A stretch of 64,000 nt of DNA from Mesostigma viride (lineage: Eukaryota; Streptophyta; Mesostigmatophyceae; Mesostigmatales; Mesostigmataceae), in contig RPFO01000154.1 in assembly GCA_009746045.1 (NCBI GenBank), forward strand, positions 7,248,193 to 7,312,192, written 5' to 3'. The translations under genes were made by a program, and so were the position numbers. Of this stretch, positions 19,531-64,000 are shown piece by piece. Position 1 is the stretch's first letter. Each line of letters starts with the position of its first letter. The notes beneath the pieces were generated by a model that was given only the letters and a program-made list of their open reading frames with translations, searched no databases and was not told the DNA's origin.

Positions 19531-19630
19531 CCAAGTTCCGAATCGCCTTCACAAGCCACGAAACGTCTACAAGAAGCGCCTATAAGGAGAAAAACGCCCA
19601 GTTGTCCAGCCTACTTTTTCAAGGGTACTG

Positions 19631-19867: not shown

Positions 19868-19947
19868 GCTTTCCAAGGCGCATTTTATTTCACCGCTGCG
19901 AGTCTTTCTTTCCGCGCGAGGAGCGCCTGTTTTACCTCTTGTACACC

Positions 19948-20895: not shown

Positions 20896-21062
20896 GTCAT
20901 TATACCCCACCTGGGTGGCTACAGGAAACGACTTGTTTGACAACATGTTTGTGTATACAGCACGGGGGTGATTTACCGCAGGACAATCCAGCTGGACCCA
21001 CTGTACCTGAGACATGTATTACATGTATACCTGTTGTGCTGAGCTATCCTGGCACGGGGGTG

Positions 21063-26550: not shown

Positions 26551-26582
26551 TGCATTTATAAAAACTCTCTCATTTTTTAAAG

Positions 26583-27647: not shown

Positions 27648-27655
27648 ACAGGCGC

Positions 27656-28453: not shown

Positions 28454-28502
28454 AACATTCTGGTCCCATGATAACATCCGTGATTGGTTTCCTGCTCTCA
28501 GG

Positions 28503-30392: not shown

Positions 30393-32389
30393 CTATTCAG
30401 CATCACAGAGAGCGAATGGTTGGCAAGCATAGACTGAAGCTTTATTACCCTCCTTTGGCAGACGTGTCAGGGGTAGAATTCTTGGACATGGATTCAGAGC
30501 CTCAGTCTGGTGGGTTGGTCTCACCCAGTGAATTGGCTAGGGACATAGCTGATGCAAGCAACACAACCATAGACGCTCCTGTGTTCCTCAGTGGTGCAGC
30601 CCCACCACAGCCCACTGGTCCAACTGGGCAGGAGGAACGTGCACTGGATGAGCAGCAGGTCGCTCCTCCCTCATCTCAGGAACAGCCACACGAAGCAGCA
30701 GATCCTGTTGTCCCCAGGAATAAATTTGCTGAGGCTCTAAAAGCTCTACATAGAGCACACACTGCCAAGGCACAAATGGCAGCAGGTGCAGCACAAGTCA
30801 ATGCTGTGGGTGAATCTAACCAGGATCCCAGTATTCTGGCAGTAGACACACAGGCACAGGTGAGCATCATCAGTGCACAAGCTGTATCTGGCCTAAGTCT
30901 GCAACGCTCGCCCTGGGCTAGAGTGTCAGATTTTTCAGGCAAAACAAAAATGGCAGTCAAAGGCCAAGTGCTAATTCCCATTCTGGGTGTGCCCACTCCC
31001 TTCCAGGTAGTAGAGGGCTACAAGGGGAATGCACTGCTGGGGGAACCATTTGTCTCATACCCTGGAGTAGTCATCTCAGCTGGGAGGTTGAGCGTGACTG
31101 GGGTGGGGCAGGTCACCCTGGACCATTTCAAAATTCCTTTAACACAGATCAGTGATGGCCTGGAAGCAGCCATCAATGCTGTCAACATAAAATACCTCCC
31201 AGGTCAGGAACCCTGTGTTGATTCCCTCATTCATTCTCAGAAGCTACACCCCTCTGCGTTTGGGCTTGGTAGATGGGACATAGCGTCCATGTCTCCCTTG
31301 TCCTATGATGATGTGGTCAAAGACTGTCAAACGCAGATTGGTTTTCTGAAATGGATGGAAGCCTTTAACAGGGCTAGAGAGGAATGGGTTTGTCCTGATC
31401 CACGTAGTAAGTCCCAGGTACCACCTGTAACACCGATTGAGGCACTGCCACAAGGGGCCAGAAAGCTCAGACTGAAGTTTGTCTGCAAGCATAAACCCCA
31501 GGCAGATGGGACACCTCCCATTTTTCATGCCAGACCTTGTGTCACGGAGTTCAGGGGCTCCACTGAGCTAACAGAGGCTGAACTGTATACCCCTGGTATT
31601 CAGCAGACGTCTCTTAAGGTCCTGTTGGCCACTTTCCTTCACCATCTGAATGCTGGTAAGGACTACGTGTGTAAAGCCACTGACATTAAGCGTGCCTTCC
31701 TTAAAGGCAACCCTGACATAGCCCAAAAGGTGTGGAGGGGTCAAGTCTATGTGGTCAACACTCCCAAAGTCTGGTCTGGGGACATCAAGGAACCTCATCT
31801 AAGGCCTAACTTGGGGGTAGAAGGGCTTCAGTCAGCACCTAAAATTTTTAGGCTGTCTGCCCAAGAGGTCTTCCTGAAGCTGGGGGCCCAGTATGATGAT
31901 ATTGACCCTTGTTTCTTCACCATCCCTCATCCTGCTGGTATGATGATGTTTGTGTGGCATGGGGATGATCAGCTCATTACTGGTCCCAGGGCAGCTGTGG
32001 AGGATTTCATTGCTCAAGTGTCTGCTAGCTTTGAATTAGGCAAGCAGCTGGAGCTGGGGAAAGATCCTGTCAAGTTCTGTGGCATCATTCTGAACCTGTT
32101 TAAGGAGCAGAAGGAGTGGGTGTGTTCTCTCAAAGCATCCCCTGAGTATGTCATGTCTTGCAAAGATGTTCTTCCCTCTGACATCACTCCTGATCTCTGT
32201 CCCACTATTAGGGGTAAGCTAGGTTGGCTGTGTGCCACTTGTGCTCCTCACCTGGCAGTGGTCAGCAGAGTGGATGATGATGTCCTCATGGAGGTAGGGT
32301 CTAGGGCTATTAAACAGGTGTTGCATGATGGCCCTCCCCTTATTCTTCATGCTTGGATCTGTTCCAACCCATCCACATCACATGCATGA
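30368..32389 (+). CDS. Protease-like segment and Copia reverse transcriptase
   Basis: The first about 50 residues finish the integrase end (HHRERMVGKHRLKLYYPP). Near residues 157-245 lies a retropepsin-like pattern, ILAVDTQAQVSII and later NALLGEPFVSYPG, with the usual Gly of D-S/T-G-A replaced by Gln. The RT follows: KATDIKRAFLKGN, GVEGLQSAPKIFRL, FVWHGDDQLITG at the catalytic box (HGDD instead of YVDD), FCGIILNL, and IRGKLGWLCATCAPHL. The order of RT segments is that of Copia RT. The frame ends just before RNase H. Confidence 0.82.
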   Translation: MSETGDTVTIQHHRERMVGKHRLKLYYPPLADVSGVEFLDMDSEPQSGGLVSPSELARDIADASNTTIDAPVFLSGAAPPQPTGPTGQEERALDEQQVAPPSSQEQPHEAADPVVPRNKFAEALKALHRAHTAKAQMAAGAAQVNAVGESNQDPSILAVDTQAQVSIISAQAVSGLSLQRSPWARVSDFSGKTKMAVKGQVLIPILGVPTPFQVVEGYKGNALLGEPFVSYPGVVISAGRLSVTGVGQVTLDHFKIPLTQISDGLEAAINAVNIKYLPGQEPCVDSLIHSQKLHPSAFGLGRWDIASMSPLSYDDVVKDCQTQIGFLKWMEAFNRAREEWVCPDPRSKSQVPPVTPIEALPQGARKLRLKFVCKHKPQADGTPPIFHARPCVTEFRGSTELTEAELYTPGIQQTSLKVLLATFLHHLNAGKDYVCKATDIKRAFLKGNPDIAQKVWRGQVYVVNTPKVWSGDIKEPHLRPNLGVEGLQSAPKIFRLSAQEVFLKLGAQYDDIDPCFFTIPHPAGMMMFVWHGDDQLITGPRAAVEDFIAQVSASFELGKQLELGKDPVKFCGIILNLFKEQKEWVCSLKASPEYVMSCKDVLPSDITPDLCPTIRGKLGWLCATCAPHLAVVSRVDDDVLMEVGSRAIKQVLHDGPPLILHAWICSNPSTSHA

Positions 32390-32847
32390 TGGACAGTTCC
32401 ATGGAGTCACGGGTAGTCACTAAGGTACAAGCCAGAGAGGCAGGTCTCTTTATGTTGTCTAACCCCACTGGCAAGCAATCTTTGGTTTCCTGGTTCAGCA
32501 GACTCCACAAGCGCAAGGCAGTCAGCAGCAATGTAGCAGAATGCCGTGCTGTGGTATCAGCTGTGTTGCATGCCAGGTATTTGAACCATCTGCTGGTGTG
32601 GTTGCAGCATCAGGCTGGTAGTTATGCTGGTGTCAAATCCCATCTGCTGACTGACAGTCAATCCCTTCTCTCTTTCCTGGACAACCCCTTGGCTGTGCAC
32701 ACCGATTTGGACTGGATTGTCCTCAAGCAGGAGTGTACCTATCTGGAGTCCAAGACTCACATTCGAGACCCTGACAATGCAGCAGATGCACTCACAAAAG
32801 TGCCACAGGCTGCAGGGCCTCAGTACAGAGTCCTATATACACGCTGA
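32353..32847 (+). CDS. RNase H of the Copia-like element
   Basis: The 164-residue frame overlaps the RT frame by 37 bp. It contains ITCMMDSSMESR (first acidic residue), RKAVSSNVAECRAVVSAVLH (Glu), HLLTDSQSLLSFL (Asp) and the terminal IRDPDNAADALTK typical of Copia RNase H. The frame change from RT lies between 32353 and 32389. Confidence 0.82.
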   Translation: MDLFQPIHITCMMDSSMESRVVTKVQAREAGLFMLSNPTGKQSLVSWFSRLHKRKAVSSNVAECRAVVSAVLHARYLNHLLVWLQHQAGSYAGVKSHLLTDSQSLLSFLDNPLAVHTDLDWIVLKQECTYLESKTHIRDPDNAADALTKVPQAAGPQYRVLYTR

Positions 32848-33237
32848 TGAACCCATATAACGGCAGAGGGTGAAGTGCCTCAGCCTAGGGATCTTAGCAC
32901 CAGATAGGAGGGTGGTCATGGGGTGGCAGGGTCTGAAGTGTCCCACCCGTAAGACTCTCTTTGCGTCAGGTCAGAAGGGTCCTCCTTTATTGATGGCTTG
33001 TTCTTTGTCAATAAAACGTGTGGTCATATTTTTCTGACAATGGTTTTCCTAACACAGGCACCCAACCAGTGGGGATGTTGTATCCAACACGGAGGAGCTA
33101 TGGGCGCTTTTATAAATGCATCTCTTTCAGTGTCCTGGTTGTCCCTGTGGGGAACCTTGCTTATCAGTAGTGGTTGGCATATGAGTGGGTTGTGGGAAGA
33201 GTCTTCCCCTCACTCCCCAAAGAAAAGTAATAATGGG
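32848..33237 (+). other. 3' untranslated part of the Copia-like element
   Basis: No coding sequence. It ends with a purine-rich stretch (AAAGAAAAGTAATAATGGG) just before the 3' LTR, the likely polypurine tract. Confidence 0.6.
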
Positions 33238-33758
33238 AGTTATTCTAGGGCTTCAGGCCTAGACTATCAGTACACGTGGCGTTGTCCCCGTCTCCCAAGT
33301 GGGATACGGACATGGACGGTAGTGTAGTACACTGGACATATCTCTACTAGGATTTAGATCCGCACGTGCCATGATGGGCACGTGGGTGCTAGATATTAGC
33401 GCTGAGATATGTAGTGCACACGCACGTGGGTATTCACGTGGTAGGGTTTATGAGCTGTGATGCAGACCACAAGGTGGCTGCAGTGCTAGTCCTGTACGGA
33501 GGTCCTAGGGGAGGTCCAGGATCGTCCACGTAGTGCTGTTAGGCAGTCGTTGCCTGCGGGCATCGTATCAGTCCTAGCTGGAGTAGATCTAGCTGGACGG
33601 AGCCAGCACCTCATTGGTTAGCACTAGTACAGGATAGCTAGGTTACCCTAACCTACGTGCCCATGCAATCCAGCTTGGCAAGCTTGCATGGGTTGATATT
33701 ATGCCAGCCATTGCATAATCCAACAGACGTTCGCATCCATTGCACGAGTGCCATAACT
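33238..33758 (+). repeat. 3' LTR of the Copia-like element
   Basis: 521 bp, a match to the 5' LTR apart from one visible base. It is followed by AGTTA and the right part of the TIR element. Confidence 0.9.
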
Positions 33759-34925: not shown

Positions 34926-37900
34926 TCATGTCGCCGTGAGGCATAGTGGTGAATACCTGATTACGGCCCAGTACTGTAGAGCATGAAAAAGCTGGAGCGG
35001 GCTGGGCTTGTCGTTATTGGGCCCTGGGTCCCACACCCTGTGTTGTTCCTGAGCCAGCAGCCAGTATCGGCGCATAGCCGCATTCCATAGGTATATAAAG
35101 CGCCGGACTACGCCGCCGCGGGTATACTCCTCGCGGACATTAAAGACTGTCTCGTTGCGTATGGTCCAGATCGCGTATAGCATAGTAGTGTGCAGCCATA
35201 TCCATTCTGCTTGGGAATCTGAAAGCTCGGTCCCTGGTGTGCCAGCAATACCGAAAATGATGGTACGCACGCTAATGGGAAGATTGGGTGGCGATGCCGT
35301 CCATGCGGCCCAGATGTTAATGAGCCACTTCCAAACCCCTGGGAGATTACAGAAAAGGAACCTGTGCTCAATGGTTTCACTAGGGTGCGTGCACAGGCAT
35401 GATGCATCATGACCAAAACGCTCGTGGAGCGTAGCGCAGACCCCTATCGCCCTATGCATCAGAAGATGTTGTACATCAGTGGCCCTGCGGTCCACGAGAG
35501 GGTGGTTTACCGCCAGGGTAATCAGCTTGACCCAAGTGTAGCCCGGCCATTGTATTCCCCAGCGGGCTCGGCCCGGATGGGGCTGATGGTACGTATGTAA
35601 CAAGATATCATAACCCCAGTCTGCGGTGTACTCAAAGATACATTTGCTGGATCTGATGTCCCCCTTGGTTAAGACCCATCCAAATTCAACCGGGTCCAGA
35701 TGTAGTAAATCGAGCCGTGTGTTGCCCACGTGTAGCCATGTAATGCTCCCAACCGGGGATAATGGGTCCGGCTGGATCATGCAAGATCTTGGCACAGACC
35801 ATGGGACTACGCGTATGCTGTGACACTGGGAAGATGGCGTGTACGCATATAAGGTGGATAGTTGATATAGACACCCATTATTGTGGCCAGGAATAGCTTC
35901 CAGCAGTTGTAGTTGGAGCCCATCATGTGGCAGAACCGTCACGACTAAACCTTTGCACGCAGGCGTGACTCCGTCGGCGTAGAAGCTAACCCAGTCTCCG
36001 GTTATAATTGGCTTGCGTGGGGCAGTCATCAATGCATGCCACGCCGCTGGTATCGCACTTATAAGGGTTTGCCACGCTTGCAGGGAGGGCATGTGGGAGA
36101 CCCAAGTGCTGACCTCGTCGTAGCTGAGCCGTCGATACGTAGCGCCGTGCCCCAGGTAGAGGTCCAGCACCCTGACAATCGGCGGTGACGCGCGCAGAAA
36201 GCCATCATACGGGTTGTGTCCGTGGAGAGTGCCGAGGGGCTTGTTAGTAGCGTCAGTGATTAAGTCATTAAAAAAGAGTGGCTGCCGTGCCACCTCCTCT
36301 CGGGTAGTAGGAAAGACTAGACAACCTGGCTTGAGCTTATTGTAACCTGTCCATATGCGCTGCCAGTACCATGGGAGTCCTTTGTACGAAATAAGGGTGC
36401 TGCCCAGTATTCCCGCCCCCAGTTGCCACGAGGTGCCACTAGCATGGGTGGAAAGAGAGGCTAGCGTTTCACGAGCAAGCATGCAGCCGGGGTGTGTGTT
36501 GACTCCCATAAAAACAGATATCACTTGTTTAGCATACAGCGCCCACAAACGCCATTGTATGTTGTGGAGCCCGAGGCCCCCGTGCACCCATGACATGAAG
36601 GACATCTCTCTGTTGATCCATCCGTGTACCGTGTGGGAGATTAAGCCTTTCTGTTTCCAGACAAAATTGCTGCCAATGCGTTGGATGAGCTGTGTGGTGG
36701 CGTCATTGGGTGGGTGTGCTTGGCAATAGTACAAAACCTTAGAGAACAAAAGTTGGTTGACGATCAGGGTTCGCCCGCGTAGGCTCATGCGGTGGACGCC
36801 CCCCCAGCGCCCTGCGGTAAGGAGAAGGCCTGCAAGTTTGCCCACGTGGTTGGTCTCATCATACATGAAAGAACGTTGTTCGGCCAAGCGTCCCTCGCGC
36901 GTGCAGCCGATGGGACAATTGTGCAAAAGGCGGTGATCCCCCGGCTTGACCCAGGTCACAGCCAGGTTGGGGAGGGCGGAGCGTAGGGTGTTGGTTTTGC
37001 CGATGTGCAGTCCCGTGGACTTGAGCACATTGCATCGTTGTTGTGTGGCAACAGAATAGGTAGTGATATTATCCATGACAGCATGCACTTCAGGCAAAGA
37101 GATACAAACATTTGTTGTGTCATCCACATAAGCCGTTTGGAATATACCTTTGCCGTTACCTGTCGGGAAGCCCCGAATGCGTGGATCGTTCTGGTGTAGC
37201 CAGTAGAGGCCTGCGTGGGCCAAGAGAAATAGAATAGGGGACATGCAATCTCCTTGTGGTAGCGATCGTGAACTAGCGCCGGTCGCTGACTTGTGTCCAT
37301 CTATTAGTAAATGCCATGCAAGTGATTTGATCAGACCCATAATGACGGTCATGAGTTGTGGGCCAAATCCTAGTGCGGTTAGAATGTGTTCTAGGTATTC
37401 CCAGCACATACGGTCAAAGGCTTTTTCAAAATCCCAGAACAATAAGAAACCCTCGATATCGTCGCGCCATGCTTTGTCCACAATGTCCATGATGAGGGTG
37501 ATGCTGTCGTTGATGTGGAGATTGGCCCTAAAGCCCACTTGCTCCGGACCAATGAGGAAGTCTAGGACGGTGTATAAGCGTCGTTGGATTATTTTACTGA
37601 TGATTTTGTACGCTACCGTAAGGAGACGGATTGGGCGGTAGTTTTTCCATAGAGTCTTGTCTCCTTTTTTGTACAGTAAGATAAGCGCAGATTCAGCCCA
37701 TCTGCCGCTCACCGTACCGTGCCGCCAAATTTCAAGAATACATTCGTAAAAATCTATGTGTAGAAGGGACCAGAACGTTTTCCAGAATTCAATAGGCAGA
37801 CCGTCGACCCCGGGGGCGCTACCGGTTTTGATGTGTTCCATAGCTGTGGTGGCCTCTTCCATGGAAGGGATTTGATCGAGTTCCTGCTGTTGAGCTGGTG

Positions 37901-38258
37901 TAAGGCGACGGGGAATGGCATGTAGGATTTTTTGCATGGCGGTAGATGAGTCAGGATGGGGTTCGTTTTGAAAGAGAGCTGAGTAGTAGCGGTGACCGCT
38001 TTGTAGTATGGAGGTGATGTCCCGGTGGCAACCGTGTTCGTCGTGGATTTCCGTGATAGAGGAGTGAGCTTTAGGGGTAGGGATCAGAGCAAAAAACTCT
38101 TTGGTCATTCTTTCTCCTACCTGGTGCCACCACAGATTTTCTGAGTCTAGTGCTAGGGTGTGCCGCTCGAAACGCAGTTTGTCTAGTTCGGTCTGGGCTC
38201 TTTGAAGTTTTGTTAGTTCAGAGTGATACAGGGTAGGCTTCGCTTGGAGTTTATTCAC
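34926..38258 (-). CDS. LINE reverse transcriptase with C-terminal zinc segment
   Basis: The 1,110-residue frame contains PGVDGLPIEFWKTFW, LLYKKGDKTLWKNYRPIRLL, IGPEQVGFRANLHINDSI, FWDFEKAFDRMCWEYL, SLPQGDCMSPILFLLAHAGL and the catalytic TAYVDDTTNV. Near the end comes CLCTHPSETIEHRFLFCN, the zf-RVT segment of plant and algal L1-like elements. It is in the same frame as the endonuclease ORF, separated by a single TAA at 38307-38309, so the two were one ORF2 protein of roughly 1,480 residues. Confidence 0.93.
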   Translation of the reverse strand: MNKLQAKPTLYHSELTKLQRAQTELDKLRFERHTLALDSENLWWHQVGERMTKEFFALIPTPKAHSSITEIHDEHGCHRDITSILQSGHRYYSALFQNEPHPDSSTAMQKILHAIPRRLTPAQQQELDQIPSMEEATTAMEHIKTGSAPGVDGLPIEFWKTFWSLLHIDFYECILEIWRHGTVSGRWAESALILLYKKGDKTLWKNYRPIRLLTVAYKIISKIIQRRLYTVLDFLIGPEQVGFRANLHINDSITLIMDIVDKAWRDDIEGFLLFWDFEKAFDRMCWEYLEHILTALGFGPQLMTVIMGLIKSLAWHLLIDGHKSATGASSRSLPQGDCMSPILFLLAHAGLYWLHQNDPRIRGFPTGNGKGIFQTAYVDDTTNVCISLPEVHAVMDNITTYSVATQQRCNVLKSTGLHIGKTNTLRSALPNLAVTWVKPGDHRLLHNCPIGCTREGRLAEQRSFMYDETNHVGKLAGLLLTAGRWGGVHRMSLRGRTLIVNQLLFSKVLYYCQAHPPNDATTQLIQRIGSNFVWKQKGLISHTVHGWINREMSFMSWVHGGLGLHNIQWRLWALYAKQVISVFMGVNTHPGCMLARETLASLSTHASGTSWQLGAGILGSTLISYKGLPWYWQRIWTGYNKLKPGCLVFPTTREEVARQPLFFNDLITDATNKPLGTLHGHNPYDGFLRASPPIVRVLDLYLGHGATYRRLSYDEVSTWVSHMPSLQAWQTLISAIPAAWHALMTAPRKPIITGDWVSFYADGVTPACKGLVVTVLPHDGLQLQLLEAIPGHNNGCLYQLSTLYAYTPSSQCHSIRVVPWSVPRSCMIQPDPLSPVGSITWLHVGNTRLDLLHLDPVEFGWVLTKGDIRSSKCIFEYTADWGYDILLHTYHQPHPGRARWGIQWPGYTWVKLITLAVNHPLVDRRATDVQHLLMHRAIGVCATLHERFGHDASCLCTHPSETIEHRFLFCNLPGVWKWLINIWAAWTASPPNLPISVRTIIFGIAGTPGTELSDSQAEWIWLHTTMLYAIWTIRNETVFNVREEYTRGGVVRRFIYLWNAAMRRYWLLAQEQHRVWDPGPNNDKPSPLQLFHALQYWAVIRYSPLCLTAT

Positions 38259-38306
38259 TATGCGTTGGTAGTACCGATAGTCCTGTCCTTTCTGGCGGCG
38301 GATATT

Positions 38307-39353
38307 TTAATACAGTTGGGAAAATTCTAGAATGTTGGCTAGGCCCTCCTGCATCCAACTGCAGCAGTCGGTGTAGCTACCCTTACTGGCTCTCCACGAC
38401 TGCCAGCGTGTCATGATCTCAAAGTAGTACTTATCGTCCGCCAGTAGGTGTTTGTTTAAGCGGGGAATGCCGGGGCCCCGGGCGGAGTTGGTGTGATGGG
38501 CCAGGGTAACGATGAGTGGGTAGTGATCAGAAAAATGAACAGAACGGTCGACCGATGCGTAGCAAACCAGGTCCGCCCACGTGGGAGTGATGTAGATTTT
38601 ATCAAGACGACGAGTAGTGCGTACATTTAAACGTGTGGCCAGCCAAGTGGGCCCGTGGTCTCGTGAGCGGATGACGTCCTGTAAGTTCAGGTCCAGGATC
38701 TGTTTACTGAAGGCCGCTGTGCGTATAGGGGGGTGTTCATCCAGATCTATATTGAAATCGCCCATCAACACAATTTCGAACCCCTGTGAGATAAGGTCAG
38801 CGGCCATTTTGAAAAGGGAAGGGTAGAATGAGGCTTGATCCGTTGGCTCGGTTGGGGCATATACACTGATAATGTATCCCTTATTTCCTGCCCATGTAAT
38901 AGACTGTCGCGTCCAACGGCCCTGCCATCTAGCCGCCGCTGTGTCGGTAGCTTCAGCCCAGTCCTGGTATGTCAGCGTGGGGTTGGGGGGCTTACGGTAT
39001 TGAATGAGGGCAGTGCCCCCTTGTGTACCGCGTGCCCATGCCCATCGGTGAACTGTCCTGGGTGCAAGTGCTCTAGCGGCCCTAAGAGCTGTGCGTGTGG
39101 CAGCTTGTTGGATTTTATGTTCCTGCAGGCCTACATGTATCCAGATTTCATGAGAGGGGCCCACGTAACGCTCGAGCAAGTTGTGTAATGCATTTGCTAA
39201 TTCTCGTGTGCGAGGTATTCGCTGTCCCTGCCCTGGTGTGTGTGACCCGTATGTGTTCAGCCCCCTGATATTCCACGATACCAGTGTTAGTTGACTCATG
39301 TCATTGCAGGGCTCCAGCGGACCAGGCCGGGTAGGTTCCGTGTAGGTCCCCAT
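38307..39353 (-). CDS. LINE apurinic/apyrimidinic-type endonuclease
   Basis: From the ATG at 39353 (an ATG at 39299, MSQLTLVSWNIRG, is also plausible). The motifs are SWNIRGLNT, HVGLQEHKI (catalytic Glu), YIISVYAPTEP, EIVLMGDFNIDLDEHPP, RRLDKIYITPTWAD and HFSDHYPLIVTL. All key exonuclease/endonuclease/phosphatase residues (N, E, D-N, D, S-D-H) are present. The frame stops with TAA at 38307 and continues into the RT frame without a shift. Confidence 0.9.
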   Translation of the reverse strand: MGTYTEPTRPGPLEPCNDMSQLTLVSWNIRGLNTYGSHTPGQGQRIPRTRELANALHNLLERYVGPSHEIWIHVGLQEHKIQQAATRTALRAARALAPRTVHRWAWARGTQGGTALIQYRKPPNPTLTYQDWAEATDTAAARWQGRWTRQSITWAGNKGYIISVYAPTEPTDQASFYPSLFKMAADLISQGFEIVLMGDFNIDLDEHPPIRTAAFSKQILDLNLQDVIRSRDHGPTWLATRLNVRTTRRLDKIYITPTWADLVCYASVDRSVHFSDHYPLIVTLAHHTNSARGPGIPRLNKHLLADDKYYFEIMTRWQSWRASKGSYTDCCSWMQEGLANILEFSQLY

Positions 39354-39401
39354 GGCGAGGTGAGGTTGGACCTGCGAAAGGTGCAAGACACGGCACAACA
39401 A

Positions 39402-39979
39402 GAACAGGGCGTGGGCGTGAGATAGTCGTGAAAAGAGAGGCCTACTGTGCAGTGTGCTATGAGCAGAACCAAAGCGATTGGAAAGGCTGCATTACACCCA
39501 CGTCTGGGTAATGGCAGCAGGTATTGAAAAAATTCGTTATGGGGGTATCTCGGTGATAGCGGATCACCAGGTGTGGCGATAACTATTCCATAGTCATTGC
39601 GCCAGTCAAAGGGAAACCGAGGGTACAGGAGGTCACGCTCCGAGGAGACTACTCGCCCACCCAGGTGGAGGGGCCCAGCCAGGCCAAGTCCATCCTGCCA
39701 ATGGGTTTTCGAATCCGAGCCGTGGCTCACTGACCGAATGCCATAATGGGGTAGCCGTCACTAGAAACAGTGAGGCGAAGGGCGGACTTACGATTTTCGT
39801 AAGGCCTGCTCCTTACACCCACACGTTTCAAGTGACGGCTAGCTTTTCCGCCCCTCAAGAGAGGTGTCTAAACGTACCTTTTCGTGCTGAATCCGAATCT
39901 GCCCTTTGTTTCGCGTTTAGATTACTACGTAAGGTGCTATCCCGTCCGCCGTCAGGCCCACCATAGCCAAGACGTATGA
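39402..39979 (-). other. 5' region of the LINE, with a stem-loop
   Basis: No ORF1 is recognised. An inverted repeat pairs 39752-39768 with 39825-39841 (one mismatch), and an inner CTTACG...CGTAAG hairpin lies at 39787-39803. A frame at 39296-39730 minus has no recognised domain. Confidence 0.5.
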
Positions 39980-42504: not shown

Positions 42505-43332
42505 TGTTGGAAAAGAAGAGGAAACTAATGGGTTTTACACAATGCCTTGTGCTTGGCCTTGCTACTTTTTCACCTTGCAGGTGATGAAAGACTGAGCTTG
42601 AAGACAATGGAAGAGAGACCAGAAAAAGAGTTTTATTTAATAGATTTAGAGGTTAGGAAAAGAGGTTGAATGGAGGTTCAATAGAGGTTCCTGCCCTTAG
42701 GGGGCAGTTTCCTTTTATACCTTTTAGGCTAGGAAGGATGACATCAGCAATGACATCATCACAGAAGCTTGTAGAAACATCCTAGCATATTCCTAGCATA
42801 TTCCCAGCATATTCTCAGCATATTCCAGGAATATTCCTGGCATATTCTTAGAACATTCCTAGAACATTCTAGACATGATCCAATGAGCTGGCATAATAGC
42901 TAGATGCCAAGTGTCTACGTAATAATGTGCCACATACATAACATGATTAATAAAGTGACACATCTCTTTTCCTTGGAGTGACAAGTGTCATACAATGAGT
43001 CTACCCACTTGTCATCATGTAAGTCATAACATGTGTCATCATGAGCTTCCAACATTTGTCAATTGTCAGCTCATGGACCAAACACTTGTCCACTAGGCCA
43101 TAGTACCACTTGTCAATCAAATACGTGATGCTACTAGGCTGACTCAGGGTACAAGTCATCCATGTCCAAGTATAGGACTATGGCACATGAATATTGATCA
43201 GCTCATTGAGCCCGATTCATCTAGCTTTATAATATCATAGCTATCAAATTCCCAGTCCATATGGAATAAATCCAACAAGAAATTAATCAGGCGGGGATAT
43301 ATTGTGGCCAGGTGGATATAATATCCCTAACA
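42505..43332 (-). repeat. 3' LTR of the gag-protease Copia element
   Basis: 828 bp, TG...CA. It contains short GCATATTCC repeats (about 42784-42850). Confidence 0.93.
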
Positions 43333-44490
43333 CCCCCCTTAGCCACATGGGCACAATTCAAAAGATGTCTGGGTAGGTGGAATCTCAACACCCCCCTTAA
43401 CCACATGCTCGTAGCATGCCGTCCAGTTGCTACCATGGTGCAACTGAAAATGAAGATGCCGTCCTCGTGAAACGCTTGAAGCTCCAACATGCGGTCATGA
43501 GCCGCACTACCGCCATGCACTGATCCCCCCCCGGCAACGCGAATGAGTGTCCTACCATAGCAGCAACGCACTAGCTGCCCATCAATCCTGGATGGCTGAT
43601 ACCCAACCCTTAGTTGGAAAAAAAAGTGCTCTAGATGCTACATTCCCCCCTCACTCAAAGCGGCTGCCCATGGACACAATAGGGGCACACAGTCCCACAC
43701 ATATAATACGGCAACACATGCCAACAAAGAAGGTCCCTATGAGCTAACCCAAACGGTATAGAGATAGGGTAACGGCAACAACACGTGCTGTACACACACG
43801 GAGCAACATAACATACGCCATCTCACAAAATAAATGACACCAACATCACGTTTGCGCCAATTAAACGGGGTGAGCAAACAAACATATTGGCAACAAATGC
43901 CACACAAACAAGGTGCAATACAACCTTCAACACAAAACACAGTGGCCATAACAGATAAACACGCTTCATAGCAAAGAAAACAGGACGTGCAAAACATTAC
44001 CGCCACAAAGGCGAACACAAGTAACGATTACTTCGTCACGATTCACAAATCAGTGCCCGAGAGTAAACATTACGTCCGACATTACAGGCTATGCCGAAAT
44101 GCACAGCCGAACTCGACACAAAGGACGTAAGCATTTGCATACAACCAATGCTCTCAGCACAAAACAAAATAACACACGCGTCACAGGCACTTTAATTACG
44201 AAAACAAGTCGTAGACGACAATACAACGGCGCTTCACTACGCCGCAGACCAGTGCCACAAATAGCGTGCAAAAACTCTGGAGATACACTCCAGGTACGTA
44301 GAAAACGTCTCGTGGGAACAATACCAAAATGCGTGGGCCATCGCCACTGAACGCATGGCAAAATAAGCACATAATTGCTGGAAGAACACAAAGAAACGGA
44401 ACCAGAAAACGCACGCTTACGGCGCCTCACAATTTCCAGCAAACACGACACAAAAGTCGACATACAAGTTAACTTCCCACAGACAAAACA
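43333..44490 (-). other. Internal, probably noncoding part of the gag-protease Copia element
   Basis: It starts with the polypurine tract; a second near-copy of that tract (complement of CAACACCCCCCTTAACCACATG, 43388-43409) lies 50 bp inward. The minus frames at 43737-44018 and 44089-44463 are Cys/Val/Leu-rich and do not resemble pol. Confidence 0.45.
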
Positions 44491-45117
44491 TTAGGGCAAC
44501 CTTGAGGAGTGGGATCTGTGCATCCTGGGCGACAATTTCCAAGGGTCGTTGCAGCTAGCGAAATTGCAAATGCCATGGCCTGGCCGAACACCGTAAACTG
44601 ACCGACGTGATACCTTGGCAGCATTTTGCACCTTAGTTGACCGTTGGTGCTTGACAGCACTGTGGCTGACAGGTCGCTGTCCACGTCGTTGTCGGCTCGC
44701 TCGAGGCCTCGCGCCAGCACCGGACTTGGCAGTCCAGGACTTGGAAAAATTTTGCAGCTTGGTCGATTTCGCCCTCGCGCCACGAATTTGTTCCCCCTCA
44801 GTTAGGCTGGCAGCGTTCGAGCGCCGCACCTTTGGTCTGGTCGCCGGACTTGGGTTACTAGCACCAGTATCACCTGGTATGCTGGCGGCGACAACGCGCT
44901 CCGCCTGCACTGGGCTGTTCTGGACCGCGGTTTCTGGAAGTACTTCAGCGTCTGACACGGACTTCTCCATTGCGCTGGAAACTTCTCGAATTGGCGTGAA
45001 CTTCCACTGGGCCGGCGCAGAGTATATAAAGCCACGCAGTGTGCGAGTAATGCCCAGTAGGCCGCCCCCGATCCCGCATACACGGGCAAGCATGGCCAGT
45101 ATGACCGTTAGGCCCAC
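44491..45117 (-). CDS. ORF after gag-protease, function unknown
   Basis: The 208-residue frame overlaps the end of the gag-protease frame in another phase. It has a short hydrophobic start (LTVILAMLARVCGIGGGLLG) and then Ser/Ala/Lys/Arg-rich sequence. It has no integrase or RT motif. It may be the spliced-down remainder of pol or a chance frame. Confidence 0.35.
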   Translation of the reverse strand: MGLTVILAMLARVCGIGGGLLGITRTLRGFIYSAPAQWKFTPIREVSSAMEKSVSDAEVLPETAVQNSPVQAERVVAASIPGDTGASNPSPATRPKVRRSNAASLTEGEQIRGARAKSTKLQNFSKSWTAKSGAGARPRASRQRRGQRPVSHSAVKHQRSTKVQNAAKVSRRSVYGVRPGHGICNFASCNDPWKLSPRMHRSHSSRLP

Positions 45118-46582
45118 GGCCAGCCACTCCGCCGCGTGTCCCGAGGCACGTTGAGATGCTGCGCTCGCTGCTCGCCATTTTCTGCCCTTGACAGGTAGCG
45201 TCGACGTCCTTGACGCTCGTCGCCGAAGATTTCAGCTCTGGGATGGCGTCCATTGCTGCGTCCGCACCGCGCGCGGGCAAAAAGTAGGCGTTGTTCCTCG
45301 TCACGATGCTGCAGGGCCTGCTGTTCAGCACAGCAACCCGCTTGGCGAGGTCGACGTTGTGGCCATCCTTGACGAGCTGGCCGACAGATAAAAGTCGGGT
45401 GCTCAGCTTTGGAACGAGCAGCGCGTTTTGGAGGTGCACGTCTGCCTCCTGGCCCGGCAGCTTCAGCTTGACAGTCCCGATGGCTGTCGCCTTCAGTTTG
45501 CCGCCTGAGCCGGCGATTTCCCTGTTGTGAGGGTGCAGGCACACGAAATCCGACGGGCATGGCGTCATGTGACAGCTCGCTGCAGAATCCAGCACCCAGC
45601 TGGTCGGCGCCTTCTTTTCATATTGCGTGAGTGCAGCAGTGTCCGACGGCGATGGCGACTCGGCGATGGTGGCGAAGACGAAGCCGGACGACAGCTCTGC
45701 AGCCTCCTGGGTGATGTGCGCCTCGCTGGCACCTGGTGAGTGCTCCGCTCTCGCCTCTGATGTCGCGTGGTTCCGTCGCGTCGCCTGGTTCTTGCGTTCT
45801 TGCTTCAGCTCCGGATGCTTCTCCCAGCACTGGGCCTCCACGTGCCCGAGCTTCTTGCAGTGATAGCACCGCTTTCCTCCACCTTTCTTGGTAGTAGTGT
45901 GGAAAGCCTGGCCGTCCGATGAGCTCTCCTTCTTTGCTTCAGCAGAACGCCCTCCCATCAGCATGTCCTCCGCCTCCAGCAGCGCAGCCTTGACCTCCTC
46001 CAAGTTGTCCTCCTCCTTGAAATGCACCGATATCAGCGCAGGGCGATATTTGTCTGGCAGGCCGCTCTTGAGAATGGCTGCGAAGTCTTGGTCACTCATG
46101 ACTCCCCCCACAGCACGGTACTCCGCCAGCAGCAGCAGTCCCCTTAGGATATACTGCCCCATGGTCTCCCCTGGCTTCATTTGCAGCCTGTGCAGCTGGA
46201 CCCTGAGGTCCATCCGGTGGCTCTTGGTGAGCTTTTGCTGCTCGTAGACCTCCCTCAGCGTCTTGTAGAGCTTGCTGCCAGATTGGTCTGGCACGAGCGA
46301 TAGGATGCGCCTCGCTTCTCCAACAAGTGCAGCTGAGATAACAAGGCCGACAGCCATGTCAGCCTTGGGGTCCTCCTTGGTGCCAAGCAGAACATCCTTA
46401 ACCCCGTAGAAGCGACAGAAGCCCTCAAGGGATGTCTTGGTCTCCTCCCAGCCACGTAGACTTGTGCCGTCAAATTTCAGCACCATCTTGGAGCACACAT
46501 TCAGCATAGGAGTGTAGTCCACCTCGCTTGCCATGGAGCTTGTAACTGGGCTGGGTTTCTTGGTGGTCTTCTTGGAGCTCAT
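44945..46582 (-). CDS. Copia Gag-protease polyprotein
   Basis: From ATG at 46582 (MSSKKTTKKPSPVTS). The Gag core is MVLKFDGTSLRGWEETKTSL, SHRMDLRVQLHRLQMKPGET and ILKSGLPDKYRPALI. A CCHC knuckle, CYHCKKLGHVEAQC, and a retropepsin, WVLDSAASCHMTP (with Ser-Ala instead of Ser-Gly), follow, then LSVGQLVKDGHNV, the typical segment before integrase. From about residue 450 the frame loses similarity to Copia and ends. The expected integrase GAG-pre finger is missing. Confidence 0.88.
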   Translation of the reverse strand: MSSKKTTKKPSPVTSSMASEVDYTPMLNVCSKMVLKFDGTSLRGWEETKTSLEGFCRFYGVKDVLLGTKEDPKADMAVGLVISAALVGEARRILSLVPDQSGSKLYKTLREVYEQQKLTKSHRMDLRVQLHRLQMKPGETMGQYILRGLLLLAEYRAVGGVMSDQDFAAILKSGLPDKYRPALISVHFKEEDNLEEVKAALLEAEDMLMGGRSAEAKKESSSDGQAFHTTTKKGGGKRCYHCKKLGHVEAQCWEKHPELKQERKNQATRRNHATSEARAEHSPGASEAHITQEAAELSSGFVFATIAESPSPSDTAALTQYEKKAPTSWVLDSAASCHMTPCPSDFVCLHPHNREIAGSGGKLKATAIGTVKLKLPGQEADVHLQNALLVPKLSTRLLSVGQLVKDGHNVDLAKRVAVLNSRPCSIVTRNNAYFLPARGADAAMDAIPELKSSATSVKDVDATCQGQKMASSERSISTCLGTRGGVAGRGPNGHTGHACPCMRDRGRPTGHYSHTAWLYILCAGPVEVHANSRSFQRNGEVRVRR

Positions 46583-46590
46583 GAACAATC

Positions 46591-46601
46591 CTCCGATACC
46601 A
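46591..46601 (-). promoter_or_regulatory. Primer binding site (initiator tRNA-Met type)
   Basis: On the minus strand TGGTATCGGAG directly follows the 5' LTR, one base different from the common Copia site. Confidence 0.82.
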
Positions 46602-47419
46602 TGTTGGAAAAGAAGAGGAAACTAATGGGTTTTACACAATGCCTTGTGCTTGGCCTTGCTACCCTTTCACCTTGCAGGTGATGAAAGACTGAGCTTGAAG
46701 ACAATGGAAGAGAGACCAGAAAAAGAGTTTTATTTAATAGATTTAGAGGTTAGGAAAAGAGGTTGAATGGAGGTTCAATAGAGGTTCCTGCCCTTAGGGG
46801 GCAGTTTCCTTTTATACCTTTTAGGCTAGGAAGGATGACATCAGCAATGACATCATCACAGAAGCTTGTAGAAACATCCTAGCATATTCCTAGCATATTC
46901 CCAGCATATTCTCAGCATATTCCAGGAATATTCCTGGCATATTCTTAGAACATTCCTAGAACATTCTAGACATGATCCAATGAGCTGGCATAATAGCTAG
47001 ATGCCAAGTGTCTACGTAATAATGTGCCACATAACATGATTAATAAAGTGACACATCTCTTTTCCTTGGAGTGACAAGTGTCATACAATGAGTCTACCCA
47101 CTTGTCATCATGTAAGTCATAACATGTGTCATCATGAGCTTCCAACATTTGTCAATTGTCAGCTCATGGACCAAACACTTGTCCACTAGGCCATAGTACC
47201 ACTTGTCAATCAAATACGTGATGCTACTAGGCTGACTCAGGGTACAAGTCATCCATGTCCAAGTATAGGACTATGGCACATGAATATTGATCAGCTCATT
47301 GAGCCCGATTCATCTAGCTTATCATAGCTATCAAATTCCCAGTCCATATGGAATAAATCCAACAAGAAATTAATCAGGCGGGGATATATTGTGGCCAGGT
47401 GGATATAATATCCCTAACA
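46602..47419 (-). repeat. 5' LTR of the gag-protease Copia element
   Basis: 818 bp. It lacks four bases (near 47033) and six or so bases (near 47320) present in the 3' LTR. Confidence 0.93.
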
Positions 47420-54525: not shown

Positions 54526-54725
54526 GCCGGAGCTGCCTCAGTGAGGATTCGAACCCCTGACCTCCAAGGTGCAACCGGTGTGAACTTGAGTGTCCGGCGA
54601 GTGGTTATCGCCGGTAATATTGTGCGGAACCTGAGAAGCCCAAGTGGCAAAAGGTTTCCGCACAATATTAACCTAACTAAGACCTGGATCCTTGCGGGGC
54701 GCAGGTTCGAATCCACTCGGAAGCG
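54526..54725. other. Two tRNA T-arm-like segments in opposite orientation
   Basis: The minus strand at about 54541-54571 reads GGAGGTCAGGGGTTCGAATCC. The plus strand at about 54688-54715 reads GGGGCGCAGGTTCGAATCC. Both carry a perfect GGTTCGAATCC T-loop but no full cloverleaf, so they are tRNA-derived SINE pieces or tRNA relics. Confidence 0.6.
54594..54679 (+). repeat. 86-bp repeat unit, copy 1
   Basis: Identical to 55014-55099 and to the complement of 54913-54998. It holds an internal inverted repeat around TGTGCGGAACC. Confidence 0.92.
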
Positions 54726-54912
54726 GATTATTTGGGGAATAATTCGTTCCGATTTGGCACCCGGCTCTAATCATATGCGCACCAAGGAGATGCTCATATT
54801 CGATCATATTCATATCGGTATTTGCACCAACGAGATGCTTATATTCGATGATATTCATGCATACGGGTGTTCCGAGCCTAGTGATTCGTCCTCGCCCCAA
54901 GAGGCTAGGTTT

Positions 54913-55099
54913 TAGTTAGGTTAATATTGTGCGGAAACCTTTTGCCACTTGGGCTTCTCAGGTTCCGCACAATATTACCGGCGATAACCACTCGCCGGAC
55001 ACTCAAGTTCACACCGGCGAGTGGTTATCGCCGGTAATATTGTGCGGAACCTGAGAAGCCCAAGTGGCAAAAGGTTTCCGCACAATATTAACCTAACTA
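54913..55099. repeat. Perfect long palindrome: two 86-bp arms, 15-bp loop
   Basis: Arms 54913-54998 and 55014-55099 are exact complements. Each arm can itself fold (AATATTGTGCGGAAACC with GGTTCCGCACAATATT), giving a cruciform-capable structure. Confidence 0.95.
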
Positions 55100-55109
55100 T
55101 ACCGTACGT

Positions 55110-58837: not shown

Positions 58838-59702
58838 TATTCTATTCACGAGATTGTGAAATAACCCTAATAGGATCGAATGGCTAAAGCCTGCGTGGAC
58901 ATAAAATTCTATTCACGAGGATGTGTAAACCCTGATAGCATCGACATTGATCGATAAACAGAATGCCCCCCTCGCCCAGACTCAAATGTCCCCACTTGCG
59001 CTGATAACCCGTTCTCGCGCAAGGTGCGGATTTCATCATGGCGTGTACCCTTCCGTGGCGTAACTCACGCATGTTGTAAATTACTCGTCCCCCTAAAAAC
59101 GCCCAAGTCCCAATGCATCGAATATTTCTAGAAAAGGCTGCATGTTGCACCCTCGTTGTTGTTGTTGTGGGCGATCAGTATACGTTAAACGGATGCGTTG
59201 ATTATCCTGAACCTTAAAAACTACAAATTGCAGCCAGTACTGGTACACCTGCAAGATGCGATGACAGTACACCTGCCTCTAAGTCATACGGACAAGAACA
59301 TATTATATATCTTACAAGTATCTTGGACGAAAAAAATACGAACCACATACTTAAGACATGACTCCAAGCGCCGTATCTGTGACCTAGTTGGCTACGAACT
59401 AAACACTTTTGTTTCGTTAACGAGTCGTAACGACAAAAGTGTTACACACTTTGAAAGTCTCCGTGAAGTTCAGAAAATTGTTCCGGACACGAACAGCTAG
59501 TGTCAGGCACGAAAAATTCTCGCTAGGGATACGGATGTGCCGTATCTTTTCAGTACAAACAAACGTTACAACCACAAAATCAGATCCAGCCCGCGTACGT
59601 TAAAGTGCACCTATCGAAACGGTATACTTTTAATGTACTTTTTCGTTTCCGCAACGTTAACAACTCGTATACCTTTACGACGCGTAGAAAAATCGCTTAG
59701 TG

Positions 59703-62700
59703 TGGGTGGCAGCGCGGCAGGTCCTCAAGATGGAACAGTACTTCCCATCACACCATCATCGCAGATACGGCTCAGCGGGTTGGCAGGCACCGGGCTAGCG
59801 CCGGGGCCAAGTGCCAGCCAGGGGGTGGGTGCGGATGTGTTGCAGCAGATTTTGCAACATGTAGCACAATCCCAACAACAGATGCAGCAGCAACAGCAGG
59901 CTATGCAGTTGCAGCAGCAGCAGACAGCGCAGTTGGCGGCGCAGATTGCAAGTCTGCACGCGACGTGGACCGCGCAAGCAACGCTGACACCAGCGCCGCA
60001 CCTACCACAGCCGCAAGTATTGCAGCCGCAGGCGCAAGTTTGGCAGCCCCAAGTGCAGGTGTTGCAGTCGCAGGTGCCTTTAATGTCGCAGGCACCATCC
60101 GTGCAGCCACAGGCGCAAGTGCCACAGATGCAGGCGTCGCGGCAGCATGTGCCTGGCCTAGTGCACAAACTGGGTTTTCTTTTGGCGTGCCGCATGCGCC
60201 GGCACCAACAAACCCAGCGACGCCACGGCTACAAACACCGTGGGTGCGGCCAGGCATCATTCCGGGATTGCAGCGAGGCAGTCCATACACGGTGGAACGA
60301 GGCTATGGGCTGGAGCCGAGGTTTGTAGCTACTCTACCAAGGACGCCAAGCATGCCGGTGGGCTACAATGGGTCGCCGATTGAGGGATCCAAGGTGGGAA
60401 TGCCGGTGCAAGCGCAGGTGGAGCTGAAGGACAGGTATACTGCTGACGGTGGGCTTGTTGACATCAACCAAGCCTATTGGAAATATAAGACTTGGCTGCA
60501 CCAGCAGTATATCGTCACGCATAACCAGCTGCCGAAGTCCTTTGAGATGGACAACATCCCAATGTTTTTCTCGGGCAACACGCAAAAGCTGGTGCAGCGG
60601 TGGGTCACAGGCTACCATGAGGTGGCGCTGAAGACGGGAAGATCCGATGTGTGGTACAGGCGCGACCAACAAGGCTTGCCGGACTACCAACACGTGGTAT
60701 TTGACGTCGACCCTGCCGAGGAGCTGTGGGAACTGCTGCGCGCCAAGTACGCCCACTCCTCCACCAAGGCGGAGGCGGAGTGGCATGATTTCAAGGTGGG
60801 GGACAAGGAGTCGCCTGACGCCACGATGGACCGCCTGGAGGTCTTGCGGGATGAGGTCCCGGCATGGACGGAGGCGGAGGCGTGTGAGAAGTGGCTCAAG
60901 GCGTTGGGTCCAAAAGCTGCCATGATCCCACAACCTAGATTTGGTTGTCACTGGGACCTGGCCCAGCTGTGCACGGAAGTGCATGCATTCAACCGGCGAC
61001 AGGCACGGGGTCTCCCGGACCTAGTGGAGCTGGTACGCCAAGAAGTCGCCCAAGCGCACAAGGGTAACAGGGTGGGTGGCGCGCAATCAGGCGGTGGAGG
61101 GTCCAGCGGTGGAAGGGGTGGACCAAGCAGCCGGCAGTTTGGGTCGCAGGCGGACAAGCCAGCCAGCGCGGGGGGCGACAACACGGCCTCCAGCAGCACC
61201 GGCCAGGCGACGGCTGACCCGCACAAGGCATGTTGGATCTGCGGGAAGCCAGATCACGTGAAGCGGGCCTGCCCAGCCCAGTGCAAGAAGGAGCACGCGG
61301 CTGGAACGCCCGCCCATGCTCCGGCAGGGTGCAAGTACCCAGTGGTCACCAAGACCGTGCAAGCACATGCAGCGGCCATGGTGGCGGCCGACAGCACGCC
61401 AACAGAGCAGGCAGCTGAGGTATCGGCAGCGCCGGCGTCACCCAGCCAACCGAGTGGGCAGGCGGCGGGGATGGAAGCGTATGACGCGTATACGCTGGTG
61501 GAGCAACCCGACTTGTTCTGGGCTCCTATCCATGCCGTCGAGGTCCAGGCAGCTACCCGAGGCAAGCAGGCACGGGCATTGCCGTCGTTCCTACCAACCA
61601 CGGGAAATGGTGAGGGGGGGCCACCCCAGCTTCCTGCATCGTTCCCGGCAGGTTCAACCGGCGGTGAGTCATCGCTGCTGGAGCACCCGAACCCCGCCGA
61701 CGCCGAGCAGCGGCGCAAGCTGCCACCATTCTTGCCAGTGGATGGAGTGATTGATGCTCCCTTGTTTTCTGCCAGGCAAGTGATTGATGGCTGCGGGCAG
61801 CGGGGCATCACGTTGGTGCACCAAGCAGCTGCGGCACTGCAGCGGTGCGCCGACAGCCTAGACGCACGCACATTGCCGGTGGCGGAAACTGCGCGGCGGG
61901 TCACCATGCCAGTTATGCCGGCAACCCCGGCAGACGTCCCAGCACCAACCATGCCCCGGGAAGCAACCCGCGAGGAGCGGATGTCACGGGTGCCGAGGAC
62001 AGTCACGGTGGCAAAGCACCCTGATGGGTCCCCGGCTATCGCTTTCCAGGCAATCAGCGAGGACGGCACTTGTTGGGGCCCTATGGTGTGCCCCAGCGCA
62101 AAGTCCGTCACCAAGCTGGATGGCGGAGCCGGGCCGCTCGTGATCACCATGGAGCTGGCCAAGATGTGTGGTGCGACCCGTGAGAACGGCGGGCTCATAG
62201 ACAGCACCGTTCTCGTGGAGGGATGGAAAGGGCCAGCGGCGCGACCCGATGCAATGACTTCCATGCTGATCAACGTCATCCTCAACCCCACGGACCCAAA
62301 GCGGATGGCCTGCGTGGCTGTGCCGGCCTTGGTGGTCGACAGGTGTGGGTATGCAGCCCTTATCGGGATGGACGTCATGTATCGCCTCGGGCTCATAATT
62401 GACCCTTGGCTGGAGGTTGCGACCTACCGCCGTGATTGGCAGGGGGAGGGGAAGCAAAAGGCGCTTCTTCCCATTCAGTGCAGCAGCGACCCGGAGCCTA
62501 ACCCGCAGGGGGTGGTGTCGCTAGACGCGTGTGTGGCTGCAGTGGTGTCGCCCGCCAGCATAGAGGTGGAGCCAGGGGATGCGGCTGAGAACTGGGGGGG
62601 GGCGTGTGGCCGGACGCGCAAGCGGTGCACATGGCGCAAGCGGCTAGCGACAAGCGCGCGCGCGATAGGCACCGGTGTGTGCTGCCTGCGGCGTTGCCAG

Positions 62701-62778
62701 CGCGGGATGCGCAGAGGCAAAGTTGGCTTGCCCAGGTTGCGCCCCTGCCACGCCTGCGCGATGTGCGCGCACGGGTGA
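59703..62778 (+). CDS. Gag-protease of the methyltransferase-bearing retroelement
   Basis: The gene resumes after the DNA insert. A Gln-rich part (about 59860-60150, frame of 59705) passes into the main frame (up to the TGA at 62776-62778) by a one-base shift around 60140-60180. The main frame shows a Gag core (FFSGNTQKLVQRWVTGYHEV, ELWELLRAKYAHSSTKAEAE, CEKWLKALGPKAAMI), a CCHC knuckle CWICGKPDHVKRAC, a long Pro/Ala-rich linker, and a retropepsin-like segment: KLDGGAGPLVITMELA and AALIGMDVMYRLGLIID, with D-G-G-A in place of D-S-G-A. After a run of nine G (62594-62602) the frame turns into Arg/Cys-rich sequence that looks out of frame. Confidence 0.75.
62594..62602 (+). promoter_or_regulatory. 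G9 run: candidate -1 frameshift site between protease and methyltransferase
   Basis: The gag-protease frame reads sensibly up to this run. The -1 frame is open from here, without a stop, into the methyltransferase. A -1 slip on G homopolymer would fuse them. An assembly indel would look the same. Confidence 0.45.
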
Positions 62779-64000
62779 TGGCGGCATGTCAGGCACTGCC
62801 CAAGGGTGCTGGGGGGAAGCGGCGCCAGCCGGGTGCCATCACGCAGTACCCCGGCTTTAGCGCAGAGGTGCTGGAACGCATCCCGGACTTCGGGCGTGCC
62901 ACCGTCGTGCTGGAGCTGTTCGCAGGTATGGGTGGCGGCATAGCCGGTTTCCTGAGCAGCGGGGGGGTATGCAGCAAGCTCATTGCGGTGGAGGCATCGC
63001 TCACAGCCAGGGCGGCATATTTGCACCACTGCGCTATCTTGTCGCAAGCATACCCAGCACAATTTCCTCCATCCGCCTGGGCTGATGTCTTCGGCGAGGG
63101 CACTCATGACGTGCGCTTCCTTGGGCAGCAGCAGCTGCGCCGCCTCATCTCACAACATGGCGAGGTAGGGTTGGTCATTGCTGGCTGGGAGTGCCAAGGC
63201 ATGAGCCAGGCTGGGCATGGCCGGGGCCTTGCCGACAGCAGGAGCGGCCTATTTTGGGACATGCTGCGCATTGTGGGCGAGCTCCAGCAGCTGCAGCAGG
63301 TGCCACCCGCCTACTTATTTGAAAACGTAGTGGCGGTGGACAGTCCCAGCCCCACTGTTCGGGAGGATTGGGGCACCATTGTGGGTATTTTGGGGGAACC
63401 CGTGGTGTCGGACAATGCCGGGCTGGGAGGGAATACCCATCGGCTGCGCGCGTTCTGGACCAACATCGCTGGCCAAGGTTCTACGCAGGCGGTGATGCAG
63501 CATGTCGCTAGCCACATTGAGCTGCCACCGGTCGATGTCGTGTTGCCCAGTCAACTCACGGCGCAGTATGTGGAGCACGATGATCAGGCACCCTACGCGC
63601 CCGTCAACAAGGCAGGCGCCCCCATGCGAGCACTGCCCACCCTTGTCAGTTACCAAGGGTCCCAGGCTTATCGTGACCGGGGCAAGGGGCTTGTGTGGGA
63701 GCGTGCCACAGGTCTCTTGGTTCAGCCACCCGCGGGGTTTCGTGAACTAAGCATGGGCTTTGCCGAAGGTGCATCCGCCGCCCCAGGGCTCCTGGAGGTG
63801 GAGCGATGGTCGCTCATTGGCCAGGCCATGTCAGCCTGGCAGGTGGGGTACACCTTGCTAGCAGCGCAAGGTGTGCGGAGGGTGCAGCGGGTTGCACTTC
63901 CCGTCCATGCTGCGACTGCACAGGCGCAGAGTGAACTTCTCCACCCACCGGTGCTGCGCCGGCTGGTGTGCCTAAGGCGGAGCGTGCAGGCGGCAGGGGC
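62778..64000 (+). CDS. Cytosine-C5 DNA methyltransferase domain of the retroelement (3'-partial)
   Basis: The frame is open from about 62600 through the window end. The first ATG (62778) overlaps the gag stop as TGATG. Counting from it, motif I is LELFAGMG (residues 45-52), followed by an IAVEAS motif II-like strand. Motif IV is AGWECQGMSQAG with the expected catalytic Cys at 139. Motif VI is FENVVAVD (Glu182), motif VIII is HRLRAFW, and motifs IX and X are FRELSMGFAEG and IGQAMSAWQVGYTLL. The full catalytic motif order of C5 methyltransferases is therefore present. The residue before the catalytic Cys is Glu instead of the usual Pro. There is no chromo, BAH or UBA region. It would methylate cytosine in DNA, perhaps the element's own copies. 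It is continuous with Gag-protease, not a host gene. Confidence 0.85.
   Translation, partial: MAACQALPKGAGGKRRQPGAITQYPGFSAEVLERIPDFGRATVVLELFAGMGGGIAGFLSSGGVCSKLIAVEASLTARAAYLHHCAILSQAYPAQFPPSAWADVFGEGTHDVRFLGQQQLRRLISQHGEVGLVIAGWECQGMSQAGHGRGLADSRSGLFWDMLRIVGELQQLQQVPPAYLFENVVAVDSPSPTVREDWGTIVGILGEPVVSDNAGLGGNTHRLRAFWTNIAGQGSTQAVMQHVASHIELPPVDVVLPSQLTAQYVEHDDQAPYAPVNKAGAPMRALPTLVSYQGSQAYRDRGKGLVWERATGLLVQPPAGFRELSMGFAEGASAAPGLLEVERWSLIGQAMSAWQVGYTLLAAQGVRRVQRVALPVHAATAQAQSELLHPPVLRRLVCLRRSVQAAG

Follow-up and report, generated by a model that had tools for sequence, protein, structure and literature searches.

A 64,000-nucleotide stretch of the 440-Mb genome of the alga Mesostigma viride (G000; C1690:7248193-7312192, hereafter the window) ends inside a copy of a retrotransposon that encodes a C5 DNA methyltransferase. 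With 33 matches to chlorophyll-binding proteins (PF00504), the genome is that of a photosynthetic eukaryote. Read from its copies, the element has a Pol of the Ty3/Gypsy order, with the predicted series Gag, protease, methyltransferase, reverse transcriptase (RT), RNase H, integrase and PHD finger; this anatomy and its membership among mobile elements we regard as practically certain. Its long terminal repeats (LTRs) are replaced by split repeats, and the junctions between these repeats suggest an unusual route of integration. Our explanation as a whole, which joins the anatomy to a circular intermediate, methylation of the element's own complementary DNA (cDNA) and a histone tether, is held with moderate confidence.

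Results

Two families of copies share one Pol order

The genome was searched with the methyltransferase of the window as query (558 candidates, 91 scored; all counts are lower bounds). At least 93 matches were obtained, 8 of the 93 with internal stops, and they place at least two families in the genome. Family A comprises at least 35 matches (31 at ≥87% identity and 4 partial ones from two further places), and family B at least 58 at 59% identity to the query, 55 of them with one identical score. Six family-A matches share an open frame of 1642 amino acids; in the sister copy L019 a frame of this type encodes the methyltransferase, RT, RNase H, integrase zinc-binding domain, integrase core and PHD finger (E 9e-9). 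In family B, an open frame of 2074 amino acids was present in 22 of 58 matches, and a single frame holds a CCHC knuckle (below the cut-off), the protease segment, methyltransferase, RT, RNase H and integrase, with a C-terminal PHD finger (E 6e-10) whose best match in the PDB is that of BAZ2B (E 5e-15). Pfam domains follow each other in Pol as RVT_1, RT_RNaseH, Integrase_H2C2 and rve; among the Pfam matches of four open reading frames (ORFs) scanned in L019 and L021 no tyrosine recombinase was found, the integrase being of the rve type instead. The methyltransferases of the two families are 66% identical, and the ratio of non-synonymous to synonymous changes (pN/pS) between families is 0.31 in the methyltransferase core versus 0.45-0.49 in the linkers; by this sequence comparison, both are under purifying selection.

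Within the window copy, homology to L019 starts at exactly 59703 (99.6% identity over 4306 aligned columns) and the sequence to the left is unlike L019, so that this copy is 5'-truncated. It extends beyond the window to C1690:7316982, and its right flank contains RT, RNase H and integrase in broken frames. Compared with L019, gag shifts frame near 60160, and pol is interrupted downstream of the methyltransferase and inside RT. The original prediction had placed Gag, a CCHC knuckle, a retropepsin-like segment and a C5 methyltransferase of a retroelement in this interval, all in one open frame. The domains do lie there, the protease weakly so, but not in one frame: the methyltransferase ORF (from 62589) and Gag-protease (59701-62778) occupy different frames, with a 190-nt overlap (62589-62778). 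Assignment of the methyltransferase to a retroelement stood, given the pol domains and terminal repeats of the right flank, and its matches in the genome number at least 93, the domain order being the same in both families examined. We also looked for the opposite outcomes, a flank devoid of pol genes and copies devoid of the methyltransferase, and neither occurred. Coordinates are given in Table 1.

Table 1. Features of the methyltransferase-bearing element within the window, numbered from the first nucleotide of the window.
Feature	Position	Strand	Basis or remark
Retroelement part inside window, 5'-truncated	59703..64000	+	L019 alignment; repeats and right end in L018
Gln-rich N-terminal Gag	59703..60328	+	within ORF 59537-60328 until about 60160
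Remaining Gag, CCHC knuckle and protease-like segment, one ORF	59965..62778	+	
CCHC zinc knuckle CWICGKPDHVKRAC	61228..61275	+	zf-CCHC, ORF residues 422-437
Retropepsin-like segment, DGG in place of DSG	62002..62463	+	46% identity to family B segment
Nine-G run in ORF overlap, possible -1 slip site	62594..62602	+	
Methyltransferase ORF, open past window end	62589..64000	+	
C5 DNA methylase core	62907..63335	+	PF00145, E 2.2e-11 (above cut-off)
Motif I ELFAGMGGG	62913..62939	+	
Motif IV GWECQGMSQAG	63183..63215	+	Cys kept, Glu replaces Pro
Motif VI YLFENVV	63312..63332	+	
Motif VIII HRLRAFWTN	63438..63464	+	
Motif X IGQAMSAWQVG	63816..63848	+	

The frame relation between Gag-protease and methyltransferase is the same in L019, where a heptamer of G lies in slip register; in family B a heptamer of the slip pattern was sought and none was found. 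The overlapping layout may be a family trait, and programmed slippage at the G run of the overlap is possible. The zinc knuckle of the window copy matched zf-CCHC in Pfam with E 0.0027, below the curated cut-off. Retropepsins usually carry DSG or DTG. The retropepsin-like segment of the window copy, a family-A member, gave no Pfam match even at E 10; its family-B counterpart has DSG and matched gag-asp_proteas at E 0.0019, below the cut-off. A comparison of profiles, against a different Gypsy protease from the window, gave no significant match (E 0.056, probability 1%). The segment is likely, though weakly supported, to be a protease.

The methyltransferase has an altered motif IV

As predicted, the domain contains motifs I, VI, VIII and X within a frame matching PF00145. 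Motif IV was found with its Cys, but as GWECQ and not as the expected GxPCQ. GWECQ occurred in 20 of the 21 copies fetched, versus Pro before the catalytic Cys in each of 158 sampled relatives. The catalytic Cys, ENV and motifs I, VIII and X are retained in both families.

The best-fitting chains in the PDB are DNMT3, with M.HhaI close behind; in the VIA-align listing M.HhaI, M.HaeIII and others rank below DNMT3. The domain also matches PHROG_116 strongly, and because phage families match too, membership in DNMT3 is unproved. In a tree of 151 C5 methyltransferases, assembled without DNMT3 and without L049, which the motif filter removed, families A and B join (support 1.0) on a long branch, at 4.5 to 5.9 from 11 other sequences of the same genome. 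An origin from the other multi-copy C5 methyltransferases of the genome was rejected on the distance of those 11 sequences. Close viral relatives were sought on viral contigs at the protein level and with the pattern WECQG, without a match, and the plasmids searched gave none. Alignment against viral and prokaryotic contigs returned at least 80 and 78 loci, respectively, at 21-38% identity, and phage matches comprised 35 records, every one below 60% identity (20 among the matches listed).

Transitions in family A were somewhat more frequent at CpG (13/1247) than at other C/G positions (14/4159; Fisher p 0.0045, C876 row left out); with C876 kept, the values were 19/1397 versus 30/4603. These counts come from eight copies, seven without C876, which are not independent, so the comparison is weak. 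The mild excess is a weak hint at CpG methylation in the genome by an unspecified enzyme. C876 itself was considered as a diverged family and dropped, its substitutions being mostly alignment artefact.

The genome contains another group of C5 methyltransferases, accounting for about 59 of its 127 PF00145 rows (E 4e-49 to 6e-18, less C1562 and C1402; for example C1468:5244850, C35:17300, C67:20650 and C1413:3606700). The 15 members fetched (L039-L048, L051-L055) are Dcm-like with PCQ, mostly in open frames of about 300 amino acids, and several recur with identical scores across many contigs. In L050 (C1402:3168700-3170400) a methyltransferase lies in an open frame of 2065 amino acids, probably a host gene and, from its motifs by eye, presumably DNMT1-like.

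Split repeats with a fixed and a variable junction

The coding region is not flanked by a plain pair of LTRs. Instead, C2100 (family A) and C1429 (family B) show repeats in the order A1-ORF-B1-A2-B2, the units measuring about 1130 and 140 bp; because these split repeats replace two plain LTRs, the element is filed under Ty3/Gypsy by its Pol order only. The same layout was found in C777, with A1 interrupted by about 1.9 kb, and in C1468. The window copy shows B1-A2-B2; A1 was looked for there and not found. Between A1 and A2, one of 928 compared bases differs in C2100 and identity is 99.6% in C1429; both insertions are probably recent because the repeats are nearly identical. The outer ends are of the TG...CA type (left TGTCGC or TGTCAC, right GCGACA). 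A 4-bp target duplication was present in all eight copies with both ends found (family A: C2100, C777, C1613 and C1468; family B: C1429, one of C887, C1107 and one of C1468), and in all eight it flanks A1 and B2, not A1 and A2.

The TG end of an ordinary LTR element adjoins the purine tract. Here, the purine tract GAGGGGGGG lies directly before B1 and not before a TG end, and the TG...CA ends come together within B|A. The junction B1|A2 is a palindrome, GCGACA-GC-TGTCGC (TGTCAC in family B), in 6/6 copies seen. Among the 18 family-A copies examined, 8 showed an A2|B2 junction, in seven forms: A stops at CTT (twice), CTTA, CTTAA, CTTATC, CTTATCCA or CTT followed by runs of T and G, and the A of the window copy stops some 139 bp short. 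Several of these forms are successive prefixes of the sequence downstream of A1. Of the 11 family-B copies, 8 showed the junction, seven with one form and one with a different form. A chimeric origin of A2 of the window copy from families A and B was ruled out, since it matches family A without the last 139 bp or so.

In the family-B copy L023 (C1429, about 34469) the palindrome GACTACCCGGTAGTC immediately follows A1 and forms a hairpin in the predicted fold; it is possibly part of a priming site.

Other elements in the window

Two short elements (18690-21361 and 42505-46901) have repeat pairs 2.4 and 4.1 kb apart, respectively. Each holds a gag-like ORF with a zinc knuckle: 19792-20895 on the plus strand in the one, recognised by eye, and 44945-46621 on the minus strand in the other, with copia-type gag and Pol_BBD. 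No RT was found in their listed ORFs, and they are possibly non-autonomous LTR elements. The window further contains a copia-type element (rve, RVT_2) between repeats 7.2 kb apart (26030-33537), a LINE-like ORF pair (34926-39491, minus strand), a Gypsy element without methyltransferase (13994-18322, minus strand), and a nest of inverted and direct repeats, 86-148 bp long, whose arms reach 97% complementarity (54575-55106).

Discussion

A proposed route through a two-LTR circle

We propose that the linear cDNA would begin after the purine tract before B and end just past A, the LTR being B+A, and that its ends would not carry integrase sites. Joining of these ends would yield a two-LTR circle and leave the variable A2|B2 scar. 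Integrase would then cut the inner B|A palindrome of one LTR, after CA on each strand, and the circle so opened would be inserted with a 4-bp target duplication; cuts after CA on both strands of the palindrome would explain why the genomic ends lack the dinucleotide GC. The route is suggested by the contrast between the fixed palindrome at B1|A2 and the variability of A2|B2 among family-A copies, and it seems to us reasonably probable that a two-LTR circle is opened within its LTR and then integrated.

The methyltransferase, as part of Pol, would travel with RT, and its nearest substrate would for that reason be the cDNA. Either that cDNA or the circle would have its cytosines methylated, most likely in CpG, no later than the integration step and could then pass as methylated host DNA, and the PHD finger would tether integrase to histone H3 tails. 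Activity of the domain on DNA is somewhat favoured; that it methylates the element's own cDNA is quite possible, but falls a little short of an even chance.

Alternative explanations

Several observations weigh against parts of this explanation. Methyltransferase activity is uncertain because motif IV has Glu for Pro, and the nearest published relative, KnitGypsy-Dnmt3, showed no activity in yeast; according to its authors, that result and the inactivity of SymbioLINE domains on yeast DNA are inconclusive (PMC5890265). The element might therefore be the same while its domain no longer methylates DNA, Glu marking a changed protein that binds DNA or RNA, in packaging or priming, or methylates RNA. 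The near-invariance of GWECQ, set against Pro in all sampled relatives, fits such a change, but the retention of the catalytic Cys, ENV and motifs I, VIII and X in two families under purifying selection speaks for a working enzyme, and we think an altered function unlikely, if a serious candidate. As to the circle, the main weak point is family B, where a near-uniform A2|B2 could equally be an inherited junction or the product of exact joining. Moreover, 10 of the 18 copies of family A and 3 of the 11 of family B yielded no A2|B2 junction in the stretches searched, some of which were placed by offset, and no repeat pair was seen in the family-B copy C1413.

An ordinary LTR cycle followed by recombination between copies, or the inheritance of A2|B2 variants, would make a circle unnecessary; the single form shared by seven of eight family-B copies and the rearranged state of the window copy speak for it. 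It is harder to reconcile with target duplications that flank A1 and B2 in every case, with an identical layout in two families, with near-identical family-A copies that have seven junction forms between them, several of these forms being prefixes of the sequence after A1, and with a purine tract before B1 rather than at a TG end. We consider it rather improbable, slightly more so than an altered domain. The remaining alternative, a host methyltransferase gene beside a retroelement or an assembly artefact, could be read from the window copy, in which the methyltransferase has its own frame and the window ends. It is refuted by the sister copies: in each of two diverged families the domain is read in the same frame as RT and integrase, its matches number at least 93, and the 11 other C5 methyltransferases of the genome in the tree are distant. 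We give it virtually no credence.

Relation to known elements

Retrotransposons that bear a DNA methyltransferase are already known from a few algae. The closest published one is KnitGypsy-Dnmt3 of Klebsormidium nitens (de Mendoza et al. 2018, PMC5890265), whose main text describes Gypsy domains, a DNMT in the Pol ORF, DIRS-like A-coding-B-A-B repeats and several copies with purifying selection on the DNMT. The original prediction had called the arrangement rare; published relatives include this DNMT3 in a Gypsy Pol with the same repeat layout. The present element differs in having two families of tens of copies each and junction evidence, and also in its PHD finger, of which the main text of PMC5890265 makes no mention. 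The same text describes retrotransposon-borne C5 methyltransferases in Symbiodinium. SymbioDIRS-Dnmt3 combines DNMT and RT in one ORF with A-coding-B-A-B repeats, but uses a tyrosine recombinase in place of the DDE integrase and 4-bp duplications seen here; SymbioLINE-Dnmt is a non-LTR element. There, SymbioDIRS domains are reported to methylate CpG in yeast, and cDNA methylation was proposed for the DIRS elements. That some DNMT3s sit in retrotransposons was restated in 2025 (PMC12344493).

In the open-access literature searched, repeat databases and supplements lying outside the search, we found no described element with a methyltransferase and a PHD finger together; the PHD finger, GWECQ and the junction evidence look new. 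Chromoviruses are Gypsy elements with a chromodomain after integrase. The element resembles them in ending Pol with a module of the histone-reader type and differs in that this is a PHD finger, with a methyltransferase in addition.

Implications

Retrotransposons are usually targets of DNA methylation. An element that has its own writer and a histone reader, and whose copies are numerous as well as recent, would be a natural test of why elements methylate DNA. In retroviruses two-LTR circles are a dead end; here, the combination of split repeats and a DDE integrase suggests that such circles may be the true substrate. Tentatively, and with slightly less confidence than in cDNA methylation alone, we picture an element that unites a DNA-methylation writer and a histone reader with a DDE integrase acting only on the two-LTR circle, at the LTR-internal palindrome, where methylation of the circle could license or hide it.

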